Under the pieces are notes generated by a model, which had not been told where the DNA came from, did no database searches, and was given only the letters and a program-made list of their open reading frames with translations. From Verrucomicrobiales bacterium (GTDB taxonomy: Bacteria > Verrucomicrobiota > Verrucomicrobiia > Limisphaerales > UBA9464): a stretch of DNA of 33,545 nucleotides. A program made the translations under genes and the position numbers. Below, piece after piece: positions 14,143-22,039 of the stretch (the stretch's first letter is position 1; each line of letters begins with the position of its first letter). The stretch is taken from assembly GCA_027488845.1 (NCBI GenBank), contig JAIYBC010000008.1, forward strand, positions 1-33,545, in the 5' to 3' direction.

Positions 14143-17100
14143 ATGTGGCGGAGCTTGTTCCTGGGTGTTCTGACGGCGGTGGTCCTCCGGGCCCAACACG
14201 GCGGTGAACCGGCCTTCGATGCGGCCTCCGACGGGGCCCGTCGCTTCCAGTTGGCTCCCGGCCTGAGGCTGGACGTCTGGGCCGCGGAGCCCCAGCTCAG
14301 CAATGGCGTCGCGTTCAGCTTCGACGGCCGCGGCCGCGTGTACATCGCCGAGACCCACCGCTACGGGCCGTCCGTGTTCGACATCACCCAGAACACGAAC
14401 TGGCTGCTCGCCGACATGGCTTTCCGCTCGGTCGACGACCGTGCGCGGTTCCTCACCAACCAGTTCCGGACCAACCTCGCCATCCTGACCCGCGACCGCG
14501 AGAAGGTCCGTCGTGTCGAGGACCGCGATGGCGACGGCAGAGCGGACGTCTCCGAGGTGGTCGTGGACACCCCTTCGACGGTGGTGGATGGCACGGCGGC
14601 CGGCGTCCTGGCTGCCGCGGGCCGCGTCTACTTCGGCAACATCCCGGCGCTCCACTTCTTCAAGTTCTCCGACCCAGGTTCCCGCCAGTCCGAGACCCGG
14701 TCCGCAGCGGCCGCTCCCGCTGGAAACCTCAAGCTTGAAACCGAAGACTCCCTCCACGGCTTCGGCGTGCACATCGGCGTCACCGGCCACGACCTCCACG
14801 GGTTGATCCGCGGGCCGGATGGCCGCATCTACATGAGTTTCGGCGACCGCGGGGTCTGCGTGACCAACCGGGAGGGCGTGGTCATCCGGCTTCCGGACCG
14901 CGGAGGCGTCCTCCGGTGCGAGCCGGACGGATCGCGGTTGGAGGTCTTCTGCTCCGGCCTCCGCAATCCGCAGGAACTCGCCTTCGACGACCTCGGGAAC
15001 CTGTGGACCGTGGACAACGACACGGCGGGTCCCGACGACTGCCGGGTCCTGTATCTGGTGAAGGGTGGCGAGTACGGCTGGCGGACGGCCTTCCAGCATC
15101 AGGAAGGTTTTGGTCCATGGGTGCTCGAGGGGTTGTGGAAGGGTGGGCGGGACGCCATCCAACCGCTGGCCGGTGTGGTGAGCCAGGGGCCGAGCGGCTT
15201 GGCCTTCTACCCGGGGACCGGCTGGGGATCGCGCCTGGCAGGGAAGTTCGTCCACTGTGACTTCCCGGGCGGCGTCTGGGCCTTTTCCGTGAGGCCCCGC
15301 GGGGCCGGCTACGAGTTGGAGACGAAGGAAAAGCTGCTCTGGAACGCCTGGCCCACCGACGTGGACTTCGGCCCGGACGGCGCGCTCTACGTGCTCGACT
15401 GGATCCAGGGCTGGCAGATGCCGGGACGCGGACGGATCCACCGCCTCACCCCGACGGACGCCGTGCCGCTCACCGGGCTTCAGCGTCGGGAGATGGCCGA
15501 GGTGCGCCGGCTCCTCGCCGAGGGCATGGCTGGACGGAAGGACTCCGAACTCCTCGGACTGCTGGCGTCGCCGGACCGCCGTGTGCGTTTGGAAGCCCAG
15601 TGGGAACTTGCCGGCCGCGGGGCGAAGTCGTGGGATGGTTTCGTCCGGGTGGTGTCGAAGGGAAAGGGCCGACTGGAGCGGCTCCATGCGATGTGGGGGC
15701 TGGAGCAATCCACCCGCCAAGACGCCTCGAAGGCCGCCGGCCGGGCGATGGAGCGGTTGCTTCCGGTGGTGGACGACGCGGATCCGGAGGTCGCCGCGGC
15801 GGCGATGCTCACGATGGCCGATGCGCGGATCCGGAAGCTTCAGCCGCGTGTGGCCTCCCTGCTGGGGAGTCCGGATTCCCGGGTCCGTCGTGCTGCGTTC
15901 GCCGCCTTGGCGGCATTGAACGAAGGAACCTCCGCCGAGACGCCCACGTATCCGTGGAAGGAAGTCCGGGCCGCGATCCTGGATGGCGTCGCGGAGGATC
16001 CCTGGGTCGGTCAGGCGGTGGTTCGCGGTCTGCGGACCCAACGTTCAGGACGGACCGCCGGACGCGCCTTCCTCGACGGCCTTCTGAGCGATCCCGATCC
16101 GCGGGTGGTGTCGTTGGGCGTCGAGACGATCCGGCGCATCGCCGACGAGGAGGTACCGAACGGCGGGACCCAGGTGCCGTCGTTGGCGCCACTGCTGGCG
16201 CACCGGGATGCGTCGGTGGTCGACGCGGCGGCCCGGGCGATCCACGACATGCCGCTCGTGCGGGACCTTCCGTCCTTGGCTCAGTTCGTCACCCGGGTCG
16301 ACTGCCCGACGAACCTGATGACCCGGGTGGTGAACGCCGCGTTCCGGTTGGGCACCCCGCAGCACGCGTTGATGCTGGCCAACTTCGCCAAGCGCCGGGA
16401 CGTGCCCGACTTCGCACGCACGGCCGCCTTGGACGCCTTGGCGGATTGGGCGAAGCCGCCGGCTTTGGACAAGGTCGTGGGGCTTTGGAGGCCGGCCTTT
16501 GGAGGAGTGTCCGGTTTCCAGTCCTCGGCTTTCATCGGGGAAGGCGCGAGCGCGGCCACTGCAGGTGGAATGGAGCAGGCCTCGAAGCTTCCCGCGGCGT
16601 CGGCGACCGGAAGCCGGGAGCAGGAGGCCGGGAACCCGCGTCCGGGTTTCCTGGCGGCCGCGATGGAAGCGACCCGGGGTGGCGGGACGTCTCCGATGCG
16701 CCTGCCGGTTTTGCCGGAAGATCTCGGGCGTTCGATCGCGTTCGACGAGGCTTCCGGATTCAAGCGGAACGCCGAGCCGGCGAAGCGGGCGTTCCTGAAG
16801 GTGGCCGGCGAGATCCTCAACCCGATGGTCCCGGACGAATACGGGCTGCGCCTGGGAGGTCCCGGTGCCCCGGAGGCGGTGCAGAAGGCCGTCGTCGACG
16901 CGGCGTTGCGGCTTCGGGTGAAGGAGGCGGCCACGCATCTCTTCGCCCATTTCCAGTCGACCAACACGCCTTTGTCGGTGAAGGCGGCGATCGTCGACGC
17001 CTTGGCCGGCCTCAACTCCGCCCAGGCGGCCGACGCGGTGCGCCTCGCCCTCGACGATCCCCGTCTGCGGTCCGCGGCCGTGCCCCATCTCGACCGGTTG

Positions 17101-17826
17101 GAGGGCGGCGACACCGTCGGGGTGCTTTCGAACCTGGTCGTGGCCGCACGGCTCCCGGGGGACCTGCGCGCCGCCCAGTCGGCCTTGGCCGCGCTCGGCC
17201 GCATCGAGGGCCCCGTTGCCGTCCCGGTGCTGGACGCCTTCGTCACGAGGTTCCGTTCGGGAGGATGGCCGATGGCGCTTGAACTCGACCTCCGAGAGGC
17301 GGTCTTGCGCACCCCGCTTTCCAACAGCCTCGCGATTCCACGTCACCAACCGGGTGCACGGATGACCTTGGCCGGCTATTCCGACTGCCTTGAAGGCGGG
17401 GACTCCATCCGCGGGCGACAGGTCTTCCGCGAGAATCCCGCGGTCCAATGCCTGCGGTGCCACCAGGTGGCCGGAGAAGGCGGGATCGTGGGACCGAAGC
17501 TCGACGGGATCGGACGTCGTCAGGGCCGCGAGTACCTGCTGGAGAGCATCGTCTGGCCGAACCTCCGGATCGCGGCCGGGTCCGAGACGGTCGTGCTCAC
17601 ACGCAGGGACGGAACGGTCCTGAGCGGACTGCTTCGCGGCGAGGCGGAGGGCGTGCTGACTGTCGAGACCACCGGGGAAGATGGCTTGCCCGAGCTGGTG
17701 CGTGTGCCGGTGGCCGAAATCGGGCGCAGGGAACGGGGTCCGAGCGCGATGCCGGAGGGCTTGGCCGAGCAGTTGACGCCGTTCGACCTCCGCGACCTCG
17801 TGGAGTACCTGGCCGGACTGAAGTAG
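14143..17826 (+). CDS. PVC-type membrane-bound dehydrogenase with HEAT-like repeats and C-terminal haem-binding domain
   Basis: This 1,227-residue secreted protein begins with a signal peptide (MWRSLFLGVLTAVVLRA). About residues 35-450 form a beta-propeller dehydrogenase-like domain (GVAFSFDGRGRVYIAETHR, TGHDLHGLIRGPDGRIYMSF, GLRNPQELAFDDLGNLWTVD). A long alpha-helical HEAT-like region follows (about 460-1060). A c-type haem motif CLRCH sits at 1103-1107, followed by GGIVGPKLDGIGRR and LLESIVWPN, as in the PVC haem-binding domain. The substrate is probably a sugar or alcohol outside the cytoplasm, but this is not shown. Two segments look repeat-derived: residues about 180-203 (AGNLKLETEDS) and about 788-835. 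TAGGTT lies 6 bp before the ATG, allowing a leaderless transcript. Confidence 0.92.
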   Translation: MWRSLFLGVLTAVVLRAQHGGEPAFDAASDGARRFQLAPGLRLDVWAAEPQLSNGVAFSFDGRGRVYIAETHRYGPSVFDITQNTNWLLADMAFRSVDDRARFLTNQFRTNLAILTRDREKVRRVEDRDGDGRADVSEVVVDTPSTVVDGTAAGVLAAAGRVYFGNIPALHFFKFSDPGSRQSETRSAAAAPAGNLKLETEDSLHGFGVHIGVTGHDLHGLIRGPDGRIYMSFGDRGVCVTNREGVVIRLPDRGGVLRCEPDGSRLEVFCSGLRNPQELAFDDLGNLWTVDNDTAGPDDCRVLYLVKGGEYGWRTAFQHQEGFGPWVLEGLWKGGRDAIQPLAGVVSQGPSGLAFYPGTGWGSRLAGKFVHCDFPGGVWAFSVRPRGAGYELETKEKLLWNAWPTDVDFGPDGALYVLDWIQGWQMPGRGRIHRLTPTDAVPLTGLQRREMAEVRRLLAEGMAGRKDSELLGLLASPDRRVRLEAQWELAGRGAKSWDGFVRVVSKGKGRLERLHAMWGLEQSTRQDASKAAGRAMERLLPVVDDADPEVAAAAMLTMADARIRKLQPRVASLLGSPDSRVRRAAFAALAALNEGTSAETPTYPWKEVRAAILDGVAEDPWVGQAVVRGLRTQRSGRTAGRAFLDGLLSDPDPRVVSLGVETIRRIADEEVPNGGTQVPSLAPLLAHRDASVVDAAARAIHDMPLVRDLPSLAQFVTRVDCPTNLMTRVVNAAFRLGTPQHALMLANFAKRRDVPDFARTAALDALADWAKPPALDKVVGLWRPAFGGVSGFQSSAFIGEGASAATAGGMEQASKLPAASATGSREQEAGNPRPGFLAAAMEATRGGGTSPMRLPVLPEDLGRSIAFDEASGFKRNAEPAKRAFLKVAGEILNPMVPDEYGLRLGGPGAPEAVQKAVVDAALRLRVKEAATHLFAHFQSTNTPLSVKAAIVDALAGLNSAQAADAVRLALDDPRLRSAAVPHLDRLEGGDTVGVLSNLVVAARLPGDLRAAQSALAALGRIEGPVAVPVLDAFVTRFRSGGWPMALELDLREAVLRTPLSNSLAIPRHQPGARMTLAGYSDCLEGGDSIRGRQVFRENPAVQCLRCHQVAGEGGIVGPKLDGIGRRQGREYLLESIVWPNLRIAAGSETVVLTRRDGTVLSGLLRGEAEGVLTVETTGEDGLPELVRVPVAEIGRRERGPSAMPEGLAEQLTPFDLRDLVEYLAGLK

Positions 17827-17991: not shown

Positions 17992-19374
17992 TTAGCCGAC
18001 CTGGGCGAGGCTGGCGGCGGCGATGGCCTGGCCGTGGCGCTTGTCCTTCTCGTCGGGCATGTGGAACCGGATCTTCGCGGCGAGCGCGGGGAACTCCGCG
18101 GCGAGGACCTGCTTCGCGCCCTCGAGGATGACGTCACCGCCGGAACCGCTGGTGACGCGTCCGAGGATGAGCACATGGCGGAGGTCGTAGAAGTCGGCCC
18201 AGTGGGCGACGGCGTAGCCGAAGCAGGTTCCGATCGTGGCGTAGATCCGGGCGGCCCTGGGATCGCCGTCGGCCATGAGCTTCTGGACGTGCTTGAGCTT
18301 CTCCGGGAGCGGGAGCGACGCCTCGACCTCGATGCCGGCGAGGGGGATGAGACGTCCGACGGCCTGCTGGCTGAAGAACTGCACGCCGCAGCCCGGGTCG
18401 CCGCTCCACTCGTCCTTCGGCGCGTCCGGCCGGTAGTCCACCGGCGAGAAGGCCAGCTCGTTGAGCCACGAGGTGATGTTGCCTTCGGCGGTGACGAATC
18501 CGCCGGCGGTGCTGGTGCCCATGGAGACGCCGAGGACGGAGTTCACCCCGAGCGACATGGAGGCGGCCAAGGCGGTGACCTCGCCGTCGTTCACCACCTC
18601 GAAGGGGATGCCGTTCCACTCGCGGCGGAGGTCGAGGAAGATGTCCCGGACATGCTTCGCGAAATCCTCCTTGGAGACGCCGCGGAACAGGGAGGCGACC
18701 TTGACCCGGTTGTTCACGTACACGCCGGCGGCGCTGCCGCCGATGGCGTCGACCTTCGGCAGATGGGCCGCGGCGCGGCGGAGGGAATCCTGGATCCCGG
18801 AGATGTGGTACTGCGGGTCGGCCTGGAAGTAGGGGTCCCAGACGATCTCCTCGCTGAAGACCACCTTGCCGTCGAGCACGGCGGCCACCTTGCGGTCGGA
18901 GCCGCCGAGGTCGAATCCGATGCGGCAGCCGTCGAGGTGGCGTCCGAGCGGGGCCGAGGAGGACTTGGCGGGCGGCAGTTCCGCGGTGTGGACCACCTCG
19001 ATCGGGCCGTCGTAGATGCGTTCGCCGATGATCTCGGAGTCGAACCGGCCGGTCGGCGTGTCGCGGTAGTGGACGGCGAGGGCCTCGGCGAGGTCCTTGG
19101 GACCCTGGAACCAGATCCGGCGTCCACCCCAGGTCCAGAGGAGGAACTTGGCGAGGCGTTCGACGAAGAAGCCGTTCGCGGCGGCGTGGGGATGTTCCGG
19201 TGCGAGGACGGCGGTGTCGTGGTGGAACACCGAGCCGTCGGCCTGCTCGAGGGCGATGCGGACCGGGATGGTCGCCTCGCGGGCGAAAGCGTGGCGGGCG
19301 AGGACGGCGGGGCGGAAGCCGGGGTCGAGGACGGGGACGATCTTCGGAACCGGCAGCAGCGCGGCTGGAATCAT
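17992..19374 (-). CDS. ROK-type sugar kinase/ASKHA-fold protein with long N-terminal extension
   Basis: The 460-residue protein has an ROK-like ATP-binding core starting near residue 152: GFDLGGSDRKVAAVLDG (phosphate-1 motif), GGSAAGVYVNN, VVNDGEVTALA with the likely catalytic aspartate D263, and GVSMGTSTAGGFV. ROK kinases phosphorylate sugars such as glucose or N-acetylmannosamine. Two features are unusual: about 150 residues precede the core, and the zinc-binding CxCGxxGCxE signature is missing, with only DPGCGVQFFSQQ at that place. The ATG at 19374 (MIPAALLPVPK) is preferred to one 12 codons earlier. It lies 118 bp after the GH-GT fusion gene on the same strand and may share its transcript. 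The substrate is unknown. Confidence 0.82.
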   Translation of the reverse strand: MIPAALLPVPKIVPVLDPGFRPAVLARHAFAREATIPVRIALEQADGSVFHHDTAVLAPEHPHAAANGFFVERLAKFLLWTWGGRRIWFQGPKDLAEALAVHYRDTPTGRFDSEIIGERIYDGPIEVVHTAELPPAKSSSAPLGRHLDGCRIGFDLGGSDRKVAAVLDGKVVFSEEIVWDPYFQADPQYHISGIQDSLRRAAAHLPKVDAIGGSAAGVYVNNRVKVASLFRGVSKEDFAKHVRDIFLDLRREWNGIPFEVVNDGEVTALAASMSLGVNSVLGVSMGTSTAGGFVTAEGNITSWLNELAFSPVDYRPDAPKDEWSGDPGCGVQFFSQQAVGRLIPLAGIEVEASLPLPEKLKHVQKLMADGDPRAARIYATIGTCFGYAVAHWADFYDLRHVLILGRVTSGSGGDVILEGAKQVLAAEFPALAAKIRFHMPDEKDKRHGQAIAAASLAQVG

Positions 19375-19492: not shown

Positions 19493-22039
19493 TCATTCCG
19501 GCTTGGAAACGCGGACGAGGCGGAACTCCTTGGCGCAGTCGTCGAGGAAGGCGACGACGAGGCGGTGGAGTTCGCGTTGGGCGAGGTTGAGCCTCCAGGC
19601 GAGGGGCCACAGGGAGAGCAGCACCAGCCAGGGCCAGAACCGGTATGGGGTGCCCGACAGGGACTCGGGGAAGGGGAACCGGCTGGCGATGCCGATGAAG
19701 ACCAGCTCGGTTCCGGCGACGGTGGCGAAGACGACCCGTGCGAAGGAGCTCCATTCCGAGTGCACGCGGCAGCGGAGCATCTGGCGGTTCCAGGAGTGGA
19801 ACTCCACGGCGGTCAGCACCTGCAGGCGTGCCCAGCGTGAGCCGTAGATCTCGACGTCGAACGGGCTCCAACCCGCGTCGGGCTTGTTCTGCCATCCCAG
19901 GAGGTCCAGGCGTTCGAGCACGCGTCGGAGGAAGCCCATGCGGTCGACGCCCTTCTCGGCCCAGTAGAGGAGCACGCGGAGGGAGTCCTCGCGGTCCTCG
20001 AGGCTGAGGGACTCCAGGTTCTCGCGGGCGCTGAGGGGGCGCTGCCGGTCGAGCAGGTTGCCGCGATGGCGGGCCCAGCCGCGCACGATGGGCTGGAGGA
20101 AGAACAGCATGGCCACCAGCGGACGTGACCAGAATCGGCGGCGGCCCGACGGAAGGTCGGCCTGGCGTGCGGCCAGGATGCAGAGGCTCAGCGAGAAGAG
20201 GAGACTGGCCACGCCGAGCGTCCAGACGAACGGCGCCACGGCGCTGACCACCAGGAGCGGCGTGGTGACGAGGACGTGGTACTCCAGGCTGGTCACCACG
20301 ACCAACGTGAGGCTGGCGTCCCGGGTGTAGATGCTTTGGAACGGCGCGCTGCCGAACATGCCGTGGTAGATCACGGGACGCCGTGTCTCCACGCCGATCT
20401 TGGCCTGGGTGTAGATGCGTCCGTGCCACATCGAACCGCCGAAGTGGTTGAAGTTCTCCGGGTGCCGCCGTTCCAGCAGGGCCTCGGCCTCGCCGTAGCC
20501 GCCCTGCTGGCGGAGGTAGGCCCGGATGGTGTTCCGGCGGTAGTGCCAGACGAATCCGGCCGGACTGAACCCGATGCGGTAGCCGCGCTGCTGGAGCCGC
20601 CAGCAGATGTCCACGTCGTCGCCGGCGCGCCGGTAGATCGGGTCGAACCCGCCGATCTCCTTCAGCGACCAGCGGTAGAAGGCCATGTTGCAGCCCGGGA
20701 TGTGCTCGGCGACGCGGTCGTTGAGCATCACATGCGCCGGTCCGCCCGGGGAGACCATGACCGCCGCCGCGGTGGGGGAGTCGTCGGGCGGGAGGAAGTT
20801 GTGTCCGCCGATGCCGGCGAAACGGGAGCGCAGCAGGTCGCCGACGAGGTAGTGCAGCCAGTCCTCGTCCGCCCGGCAGTCGGAGTCGGTGAACGCCACG
20901 ATCTCGCCGGTGGCGGCGTCGATCCCGGTGTTGCGCGCGACGCCGAGCCCCTGGTTGCGCTCGTGCCGGATGTTGCGGACGCCGGGAAAGGTCGCGGCGA
21001 TGGACTGGGTGGCGTCGGTCGATCCGTCGTCGACGAGGATGACCTCGTAGTCGGGGTAGTTCAGCCGTTCGAGGGAATGGAGGCAGGACTTGAGGGTGGC
21101 CGCGCCGTTGTAGCTCGCGACGACGACGGAGACGCGTGGCGTCCCGGGCAGCGGGAACCACGGGGCCGTCTCGAACCGTTTTCGTACCGTCTCGAAAGCG
21201 GGCTTCGGCGACCGGTCGGCCCGGGTCAGTCCGAACGCCCAGTCCTCGACGAGCCGGCCTCCGTGGAACCATTCGTCGGTGAACGAATAGACCACCACGC
21301 CGGCGCATCCGCCGCGGAAGGCGCTCTCGACCTGCCACCCGAGGATCTCCGCCTGCGCCTCCTCGCCCTCGCGGATGGTGTCGATCCCGAACTCGCCGAT
21401 CATCAGCGGCTTCGTGTCGGCCAGCATCTGCAGCCGGGCGAGGTAGTTCTCGAAGGGCTGCCGTTCGTGCAGGTAGACGTTGAAGCAGTGGAAGTCGATC
21501 AGGTCCGGCCGGAGGAACTCGGTGGTCGGGAAGTTGCCGAAGGTGCAGAGCAGTTCGGCGTCCTCGGCCTTGGCCGTGGCCACCAGCCGGTCGATGAACG
21601 CCTCCACCGCCTGGGCGCCGCTCCAGCGCACGATGTCCGCCGGGATCTCGTTGACCACGCTCAGCGCGAACACCGCCGGATGCGCCGCGCAGACGCGGGC
21701 GGCCTCGCGCACGGTCCTGACGACCGCCTCCTGCGCCTCCTCGGTGTCGAGGAAGCAGACGTGCCGGTTCCAGGGGACGTCGATCAGAAGCCGCAATCCA
21801 TGTTCGAACGCGAGGTCCAGGAACCACCGTGGCGGCACGTGGTACACGCGGAGCAGGTTCGCCCCGAGCGAACGGACCTGCTGGAAGTCGCGACGTGTCG
21901 TCTCGGAGGAGGCGAAGTGCCCGCCTTCCGGATCCGGGGCCAGCGGTCCGTAGGTGATGCCCTTCGGATGGAACTTGCGGCCCGAGAGACGGAAGAACTT
22001 CCCGTCGACGGTCACGCGTTCGCGGTTCTGGCCTGGCAT
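19493..22039 (-). CDS. Glycoside hydrolase-like (TIM barrel) and family 2 glycosyltransferase fusion, membrane anchored
   Basis: This 848-residue protein combines two enzyme types. Residues about 10-290 resemble a clan GH-A barrel (KFHPKGITYGPLAPD at the start), with likely acid/base E131 in VVNEIPAD and nucleophile E216 in LMIGEFGID. From about 302 a GT2 domain begins: RVSVVVASYNGAATLKSCL, VDDGSTDAT, DSD (385-387), GCNMAFYRW and GDDVDICWRLQQRGYRI (about 473-488). The C-terminal third has four or so membrane segments (for example VTTPLLVVSAVAPFVW, WPWLVLLSLWPLAW). No signal peptide is seen. The start at 22039 is chosen because homologous-looking sequence begins directly after it; in-frame starts at 22090 and 22189 exist. 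Polysaccharide synthesis coupled to trimming is an inference. Confidence 0.85.
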   Translation of the reverse strand: MPGQNRERVTVDGKFFRLSGRKFHPKGITYGPLAPDPEGGHFASSETTRRDFQQVRSLGANLLRVYHVPPRWFLDLAFEHGLRLLIDVPWNRHVCFLDTEEAQEAVVRTVREAARVCAAHPAVFALSVVNEIPADIVRWSGAQAVEAFIDRLVATAKAEDAELLCTFGNFPTTEFLRPDLIDFHCFNVYLHERQPFENYLARLQMLADTKPLMIGEFGIDTIREGEEAQAEILGWQVESAFRGGCAGVVVYSFTDEWFHGGRLVEDWAFGLTRADRSPKPAFETVRKRFETAPWFPLPGTPRVSVVVASYNGAATLKSCLHSLERLNYPDYEVILVDDGSTDATQSIAATFPGVRNIRHERNQGLGVARNTGIDAATGEIVAFTDSDCRADEDWLHYLVGDLLRSRFAGIGGHNFLPPDDSPTAAAVMVSPGGPAHVMLNDRVAEHIPGCNMAFYRWSLKEIGGFDPIYRRAGDDVDICWRLQQRGYRIGFSPAGFVWHYRRNTIRAYLRQQGGYGEAEALLERRHPENFNHFGGSMWHGRIYTQAKIGVETRRPVIYHGMFGSAPFQSIYTRDASLTLVVVTSLEYHVLVTTPLLVVSAVAPFVWTLGVASLLFSLSLCILAARQADLPSGRRRFWSRPLVAMLFFLQPIVRGWARHRGNLLDRQRPLSARENLESLSLEDREDSLRVLLYWAEKGVDRMGFLRRVLERLDLLGWQNKPDAGWSPFDVEIYGSRWARLQVLTAVEFHSWNRQMLRCRVHSEWSSFARVVFATVAGTELVFIGIASRFPFPESLSGTPYRFWPWLVLLSLWPLAWRLNLAQRELHRLVVAFLDDCAKEFRLVRVSKPE

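Follow-up and report, generated by a model that had tools for sequence, protein, structure and literature searches.

A gene for a protein of 848 residues was analysed in a 33,545-nucleotide stretch of DNA (the window) from a Verrucomicrobiales bacterium (assembly GCA_027488845.1, contig JAIYBC010000008.1, positions 1–33,545; genome labelled G000). Its product joins, in a single chain, a glycoside hydrolase (GH) barrel of clan GH-A, a family 2 glycosyltransferase (GT2) domain and a C-terminal part with membrane helices. It is tentatively read, at a probability somewhat short of even, as a synthase that is anchored in the membrane and makes a β-linked oligosaccharide, soluble or lipid-linked and probably a β-glucan; it would carry a retaining transglycosylase barrel, and its product would leave by an ATP-binding cassette (ABC) transporter.

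Gene and domain organization

The gene was located by open reading frame and homologue search on the minus strand (19493–22039), with its ATG at 22039 and its stop codon at 19493–19495. The frame remains open upstream of this ATG to 22285; the ATG fits as the start because conservation across the family begins at about residue 8. Matches above the curated Pfam cut-offs were obtained for PF02836 (GH2 barrel; residues 36–225, E 1.9e-6) and PF00535 (GT2; residues 304–423, E 2.2e-33). In an AlphaFold model built with 50 aligned proteins (mean predicted local distance difference test score (pLDDT) 87.4, predicted template modelling score (pTM) 0.78), the barrel occupied residues 5–292, the GT-A domain began at about residue 300, an α/β domain spanned residues 684–763, and helices were placed at about residues 577–598, 603–626, 638–662, 765–787 and 798–838. 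The order is the GH-A barrel (5–292), GT2 (298–575) and about four membrane helices enclosing a small soluble domain. The first-pass annotation, made from the sequence alone, had described a GH-A barrel and a membrane GT2 in one chain, which Pfam and AlphaFold agree in supporting; the C-terminal domain, the GH157 affinity of the barrel and the ABC exporter partner described below go beyond it.

Barrel fold and catalytic residues

The barrel, a GH157/GH2-like (β/α)8 barrel, is encoded at 21164–22027 (minus strand, as are all features of the gene given below) and was assigned by Pfam, AlphaFold, fold search and HMMER comparison with the Protein Data Bank (PDB). Its best solved fold was the GH157 enzyme of Labilibaculum antarcticum (LaGH157; Z 32.6, root-mean-square deviation 2.4 Å, 297 residues aligned), followed at most 2 Z units below by a GH2 β-galacturonidase. 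In the profile alignment, E131 (21647–21649; predicted acid/base, NE motif) was placed on LaGH157 E132, and E216 (21392–21394; predicted nucleophile) on E224, which is alanine in the mutant structure PDB 9g4n. R64, E131, N187, E216, W257 and W267 were identical in 50/50 aligned proteins and N130 in 49/50; R64, N130, E131, E216 and W257 were likewise identical in all members of an overlapping set of 40 full-length homologues. The two glutamates claimed earlier are both present and invariant in either set. Outside the catalytic set, T173, E174 and W267 were further invariant barrel residues in the 50-protein alignment. A barrel lacking a catalytic pocket had been named as a possible objection; as judged from sequence and model, the fold, E131 and E216 are present, and the two glutamates align with the GH157 pair.

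Comparison of the barrel with LaGH157 gave E 8e-20 by profile and 2.9e-5 by single sequence. Because L136, a GH157-type protein of the same phylum, matched LaGH157 far better (E 2.2e-65 by single sequence), the barrel is best called, from these sequence comparisons, a sister of GH157 rather than a proven member. Three stand-alone GH157-type proteins were noted in Verrucomicrobiota (L136:5206–6885, L137:6625–8121 and L138:7207–9105; mutual identity 54–63% in the listed pairs), with N-termini that appeared lipoprotein-like by eye (a hydrophobic run ending G-C or A-C). A weak Pfam match to GH72 glucanosyltransferases (E up to 0.01) was obtained in 11 of 13 members, the window protein falling below the cut-off.

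Glucuronidases recognize glucuronate by an N-x-K motif, and GH2 enzymes carry β-sandwich domains N-terminal to the barrel. A glucuronidase identity was rejected, the N-x-K place being held by W267-A-F269 in the alignment with 6xxw, with W267 invariant (50/50). No GH2-type β-sandwich domains precede the barrel in the alignment or the AlphaFold model, the barrel starting at residue 5–8.

An appreciable but minor chance is given to the barrel being a true hydrolase, built in and cytoplasmic, which would trim or edit the chain, setting its length or freeing mis-primed product. The catalytic pair is intact, and a studied GH157 member, BcellWH2_01931, is described in passages of PMC10229575 as a β-1,3-glucanase that cuts linear β-1,3-glucan and had no detectable activity on pustulan; against this, joining a hydrolase to its own synthase on the same side would risk a futile cycle, and the fusion has nevertheless been retained widely.

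Glycosyltransferase domain and C-terminal part

The GT2 domain (residues 298–575; 20315–21148) was assigned by Pfam, NCBIfam, the model and fold search, and the GT-A fold, DxD motif and catalytic Asp motifs required of a GT2 enzyme were found. The DxD motif is D385-x-D387 (20879–20887), and D474-D475 (20615–20620, within GDDVD) mark the probable catalytic-base region; these four residues and D338 were identical in 50/50 aligned proteins, so that the acidic motifs of the GT2 set reported earlier are present throughout. The best NCBIfam model for this part was MftF (TIGR03965; 193 bits, E 8.9e-57, residues 293–618), the cut-off of 280 not being reached. According to passages of PMC7491314, MftF is needed for a β-1,4-glucose chain and glycosylates a small molecule. 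A role in mycofactocin synthesis was considered and dropped: MftC, the radical S-adenosylmethionine protein, scored above cut-off in 0/39 genomes, a search with no positive control, since the 14 control genomes likewise gave 0.

The resemblance to MftF bears on the proposal that the barrel is mainly a binding module, holding an acceptor or primer (a lipid-linked or small-molecule glycoside) for GT2, with its glutamates little used or not used. Such a role would suit a GT2 that resembles an enzyme with a small-molecule acceptor, and the invariant T173, E174 and W267 might shape a specialized pocket. GH modules that only bind as a rule lose their catalytic residues; here both glutamates, R64, N187 and W257 are invariant and N130 nearly so, and the proposal is regarded as improbable.

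Processive synthases of the cellulose or hyaluronan type carry a QxxRW motif and six to eight channel-forming membrane helices. At the QxxRW place the fusion family has Q-Q-x-G-Y-G (Q511-Q512-x-G-Y515-G), and about four membrane helices were predicted per chain; because this is fewer than in the channel-forming synthases, a separate exporter makes sense, and a dimer might form a channel. The best folds for GT2 were soluble enzymes (6p61, Z 24.2; chondroitin polymerase 2z86, Z 23.7), and a viral hyaluronan synthase matched with Z 22.4 over 305 residues, reaching residue 367 of a second model, of which residues 1–367 are covered by the GT2 fold-search results. A branch of three loci, L129, L130 and L131 (G236, G273 and G295), has shortened GH-GT2 frames of 692–714 residues, with no match to the C-terminal part detected, and would be useful for probing the role of that part.

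Membrane topology

Four helices are predicted from the model to span the membrane: helix 1 (residues 577–598; 20246–20311), helix 2 (603–626; 20162–20233), helix 3 (765–787; 19679–19747) and helix 4 (798–820; 19580–19648), the first three from model, hydropathy and alignment and the fourth from model and alignment. A further modelled helix (638–662; 20054–20128) probably lies at the membrane interface, and the small α/β domain between membrane helices (684–763; 19751–19990; model and alignment) is predicted to be cytoplasmic, as are the barrel and GT2. GT2 enzymes use cytoplasmic nucleotide-sugars, from which the predicted cytoplasmic placement of all three also follows. Loop charges mostly favour barrel and GT2 inside: over the 50 proteins, lysine plus arginine (K+R) per residue was 0.25 in the stretch following helix 2, 0.19 in the C-tail and 0.14 within the α/β domain, all predicted inner, and 0.03 and 0.07 in the two short predicted outer loops between helices.

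No hydrophobic 15-residue stretch was found within 60 residues ahead of the barrel in 113/114 members, the untrimmed frame included (exception, L098). The lack of a signal peptide noted in the first-pass annotation is upheld by this result, and an unrecognized N-terminal export signal, which had been raised as an objection, was looked for without a hydrophobic one being found. No membrane helix was seen between barrel and GT2 in the AlphaFold model or in the hydropathy of the 50 proteins; family-mean hydropathy over residues 1–295 reached at most 0.92, and the window protein peaked at 1.33 at residues 116–134, within the barrel. Because the stand-alone proteins L136–L138 start with lipoprotein-like signals, the unexported location looks like a feature of the fusion.

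An exported barrel or an inverted topology, as in a Pseudomonas GH17-GT2 protein with a predicted periplasmic GH17 barrel, is very improbable. Such an architecture has been proposed (PMC10237404, in part), and residues 560–576 are without the expected inner charge; the missing helix between barrel and GT2 and the missing N-terminal stretch speak against it. The earlier claim that the GH part faces the cytoplasm together with GT2 catalysis is thus favoured by the predicted loop charges, apart from the low K+R content of residues 560–576. The same annotation had called this an odd location for a hydrolase. The cytoplasmic prediction stands, and the location seems less odd beside the rhizobial synthase, which has a transglycosylase in one chain with GT2 and, in passages of PMC11842490, a primer site accessible from the cytoplasm.

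Distribution and conservation

Some match was obtained in 59/59 related genomes, and a match spanning barrel and GT2 in 50/59 (counted from the listing). Among the 50, a contig edge truncates the matches of G004 and G015, and that of G039 crosses one TGA. In the other nine, fragments of both parts are spread over two contigs in G011 and G028, G044 has the barrel and the GT2 start, G050 has a C-terminal piece, and the remaining five gave weaker matches only. Because barrel and GT2 are spanned in 50/59 genomes, the fusion is far beyond chance; it is real and old.

In the named genome collection, at least 530 relatives were confirmed among 590 candidate stretches. The best 80 of these relatives were labelled Verrucomicrobia or Planctomycetes, with few other or unnamed, and nearly all were metagenome-assembled genomes; some labels (e.g. 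Akkermansia muciniphila) look wrong. In a phylum-wide sample the barrel was matched at 1e-10 in 75/240 genomes and at 1e-70 in only 19, the window's included; 16 loci were fetched from the latter set, and GT2 was in the same frame as the barrel in 16/16. In the phylum of a Phycisphaerae locus the barrel was matched at 1e-25 in 3/294 genomes, that one included. Among plasmids, 913 records gave a match, of which none covered 80% of the query, the best rows matching the GT2 part. Counts of loci include near-duplicates: L038 equals L104, and L021–L040 may share genomes with L041–L120.

Ratios of non-synonymous to synonymous substitution (dN/dS) against L047 were 0.21 for both the barrel and the C-terminal part and 0.13 for GT2, and against L041 and L048 they were 0 to 0.15; with L042, saturation of synonymous sites left an estimate for GT2 only (0.03). 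These sequence estimates indicate purifying selection in both halves where it is estimable. Two GH-GT2 copies were noted in three genomes: L032 and L037 (G042), L023 and L036 (G051), and L030 and L031 (G048).

ABC exporter partner

Downstream genes were surveyed in 117 loci with the main gene; six had 700 bases or fewer downstream, leaving 111 counted. An MsbA-type ABC exporter was the next same-strand gene in 11/111, at −104 to +6 bases as the frames were drawn. Three further loci (L078, L092 and L102) have a tandem exporter pair upstream on the opposite strand, divergent from GH-GT2. In G042 and G051 the diverged of the two GH-GT2 copies is the one adjoining an ABC exporter. Acyltransferase-like genes lie beside the exporter pairs of L078, L092 and L102, and L102 also has a PF13524 protein.

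An exporter tree (midpoint root) was built from 16 linked exporters and 20 others chosen from 40 listed places in related genomes; L078, L092 and L102 give two exporters each, and the L117 exporter, its frame broken, was left out. All 16 linked exporters fell in one group of 18 rows (support 100/99), and 18/20 of the others fell outside it. One of the two unlinked members of the group belongs to G051 (L162), where the 18 kb fetched contain no GH-GT2; the other belongs to the window's own genome (G000:C65:5309–7009). On a fusion tree of 57 chosen rows, including all linked loci, these were on several branches in Verrucomicrobiota and Planctomycetota; the linkage label required 7 changes compared with a mean of 12.5 when shuffled, a label count that is not a random sample. 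This pattern supports an old association of fusion and exporter whose genes later became separated in the lineage of the window, though the exporter may instead have been gained repeatedly.

For the linked exporters that were tested, MsbA-type models gave the highest scores and chvA lower ones, with no score reaching its cut-off; from the divergent pairs one L078 gene was compared, its best match being another ABC family and MsbA-type the next. In the window's genome (L164; G000:C65, 4497–11716), the exporter-clade member follows a cytidylyltransferase (PF02348) and precedes a 597-residue frame without Pfam match, a protein with a Poly_export match below cut-off and a ParA/AAA_31-type protein.

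These exporters lend some colour to another proposal, namely that the protein makes the sugar portion of a glycolipid (LPS-like or lipoglycan, LPS being lipopolysaccharide), which the ABC partner flips, the barrel swapping sugar onto a lipid or other acceptor. The MsbA-type scores, with the linked exporter of G136 being its genome's best MsbA match, and the cytidylyltransferase adjoining the exporter of the window's genome would be in keeping with it. In 4/5 linked genomes compared (G042, G051, G100 and G130), however, another exporter matches MsbA better than the linked one, and in the window neither the fusion itself nor an adjacent gene provides a lipid enzyme; the proposal is judged decidedly improbable.

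Proposed mechanism

In the favoured reading, a transglycosylating synthase with its own exporter, GT2 would add sugars from a cytoplasmic nucleotide-sugar, and the GH157-like retaining barrel, on the same side of the membrane, would act on the growing chain. A covalent sugar–enzyme intermediate would form on E216 and be passed to another sugar hydroxyl, not mainly to water, cyclizing, branching or ending the chain. A dedicated MsbA-type ABC transporter, whose gene adjoins the fusion in several lineages and lies elsewhere in the window's genome, would carry the finished product out. The first-pass annotation had suggested trimming, transfer or measuring of the chain. Transfer is tentatively favoured over hydrolysis because a hydrolase tied to its own synthase would counteract it, and because the nearest parallels (GH189 and Pseudomonas GH17) are transglycosylases.

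Several observations weigh against this reading. Since GH157 enzymes hydrolyse their substrates, plain hydrolysis may be all that the barrel does, and the hints to linkage disagree, with β-1,4 suggested by analogy with MftF and β-1,3 by analogy with GH157. In 100/111 loci, the window locus among them, no ABC exporter is adjacent; MsbA-type exporters may move lipids instead of sugars, a concern to which the G136 exporter adds; and the cytidylyltransferase and export-type neighbours of the exporter in the window's genome could mean another envelope glycan. Residues 560–576, before helix 1 and predicted inner, have a K+R content of only 0.03 per residue.

A bolder form of the proposal, thought unlikely, is that the fusion is a third, independently built synthase of cyclic or closed glucans, in which a cytoplasmic GH157-like barrel would turn the GT2-made chain into a ring or capped oligosaccharide, and an ABC transporter of its own would deliver this to the periplasm as a glucan of Verrucomicrobiota and some Planctomycetota.

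Cyclic glucans, which are important in osmotic adaptation and in contact with hosts, have been linked to synthases that contain glycosidase-fold domains (GH17-GT2; rhizobial GT-GH189-GH94). If the favoured reading is true, a cell may use one machine both to build a sugar chain and to remodel it before export, and a widespread family with another barrel, located together with the transferase on one side of the membrane, would offer a compact, testable model for the control of chain size and closure. It would also be a candidate exported-glucan route in Verrucomicrobiota; a search for the OpgG family (MdoG, PF04349) gave no match in 37/39 genomes compared, the window's included. For known glucan routes, PF10091 gave matches in 22/39 genomes, mostly in frames shorter than 800 residues, with frames longer than 2,900 residues in two.

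Other neighbouring genes

The window neighbours, a serine acetyltransferase upstream and a 460-residue protein downstream, were not taken as partners. The latter (17995–19374, minus strand), directly downstream of the fusion, gave no Pfam or NCBIfam match and a PDB match of E 0.51 to a hypothetical sugar kinase; by eye it has a DLGGS stretch like that of actin-fold sugar kinases. The fusion is followed by this protein in L041, L046, L047 and L048 as well, and in L138 a homologue is found 3 kb from the GH157-type gene. At 14143–17826 (plus strand) the window holds the gene for a large heme-binding CxxCH protein of PVC type, in which HEAT repeats are combined with a cytochrome c end (TIGR02604 and TIGR02603 over cut-off).

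Recurrent neighbours in other loci included a family of proteins of about 390 residues (12 members in 7 loci, several of them linked), of which 2/5 tested matched PF13524 glycosyltransferases and 3/5 nothing, and a second family (6 members in 4 loci), two tested L102 members of which were hexapeptide acyltransferase-like. Housekeeping-like recurrent neighbours, named by eye, were set aside as partners: thymidylate-synthase-like (24 loci, not always adjacent), dihydrofolate-reductase-like (10) and TolC-like (13).

Comparison with known systems

No description of a GH157/GH2-like barrel fused to GT2 was found among the open-licence papers listed, as judged by titles and abstract beginnings, and no such fusion appears in the passages of PMC11340318 that were covered. 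The closest solved barrel, that of GH157 (LaGH157, PDB 9fz9, 9g4n and 9g5g; BcellWH2_01931), is only 18% identical, and the GH157-type proteins L136–L138 stand alone with lipoprotein-like N-termini, whereas the fusion barrel is joined to GT2 and has no such signal. GH2 β-glucuronidases and β-galacturonidases share the barrel fold (Z about 29–31; Pfam GH2_C above cut-off), but the fusion barrel has neither β-sandwich domains before it nor N-x-K. The MftF model covers residues 293–618 only, and the fusion adds the GH barrel and the C-terminal part beyond this match.

The Pseudomonas BcsA-like orphan/NdvB protein (GH17-GT2) likewise has a GH barrel of the TIM type before GT2 in one chain. It is proposed in passages of PMC10237404 to be a cyclic β-glucan synthase, with the GH17 barrel predicted periplasmic and a transmembrane region as link, and enzyme work cited there showed GH17 to be a transglycosylase. 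The fusion differs in its GH157/GH2-like barrel and in having no helix between the domains.

The rhizobial cyclic glucan is exported by an ABC exporter of the ChvA/NdvA type. Its synthase resembles the fusion in proposed role, a synthase and a retaining transglycosylase in one chain. As described in parts of PMC11842490, the rhizobial enzyme combines a GT2-type domain, GH189 and GH94, and GH189 was shown by experiment to be a transglycosylase. It differs in its (α/α)6 GH189 domain, far larger size and GH94, where the fusion has a (β/α)8 barrel, and in its chvA-type exporter, the fusion-linked exporters scoring higher with MsbA-type models.

The principle of a synthase and a glycosidase-fold remodeller in one chain is known, and each of the two nearest working parallels differs from the fusion in a defining feature. 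The combination of a GH157-like barrel with an MftF-like GT2, no membrane segment between them, a C-terminal part of its own and an ABC partner in some lineages appeared in none of the papers listed. By analogy, the best reading is that the fusion works like the rhizobial cyclic glucan synthase, while not being a member of its family.

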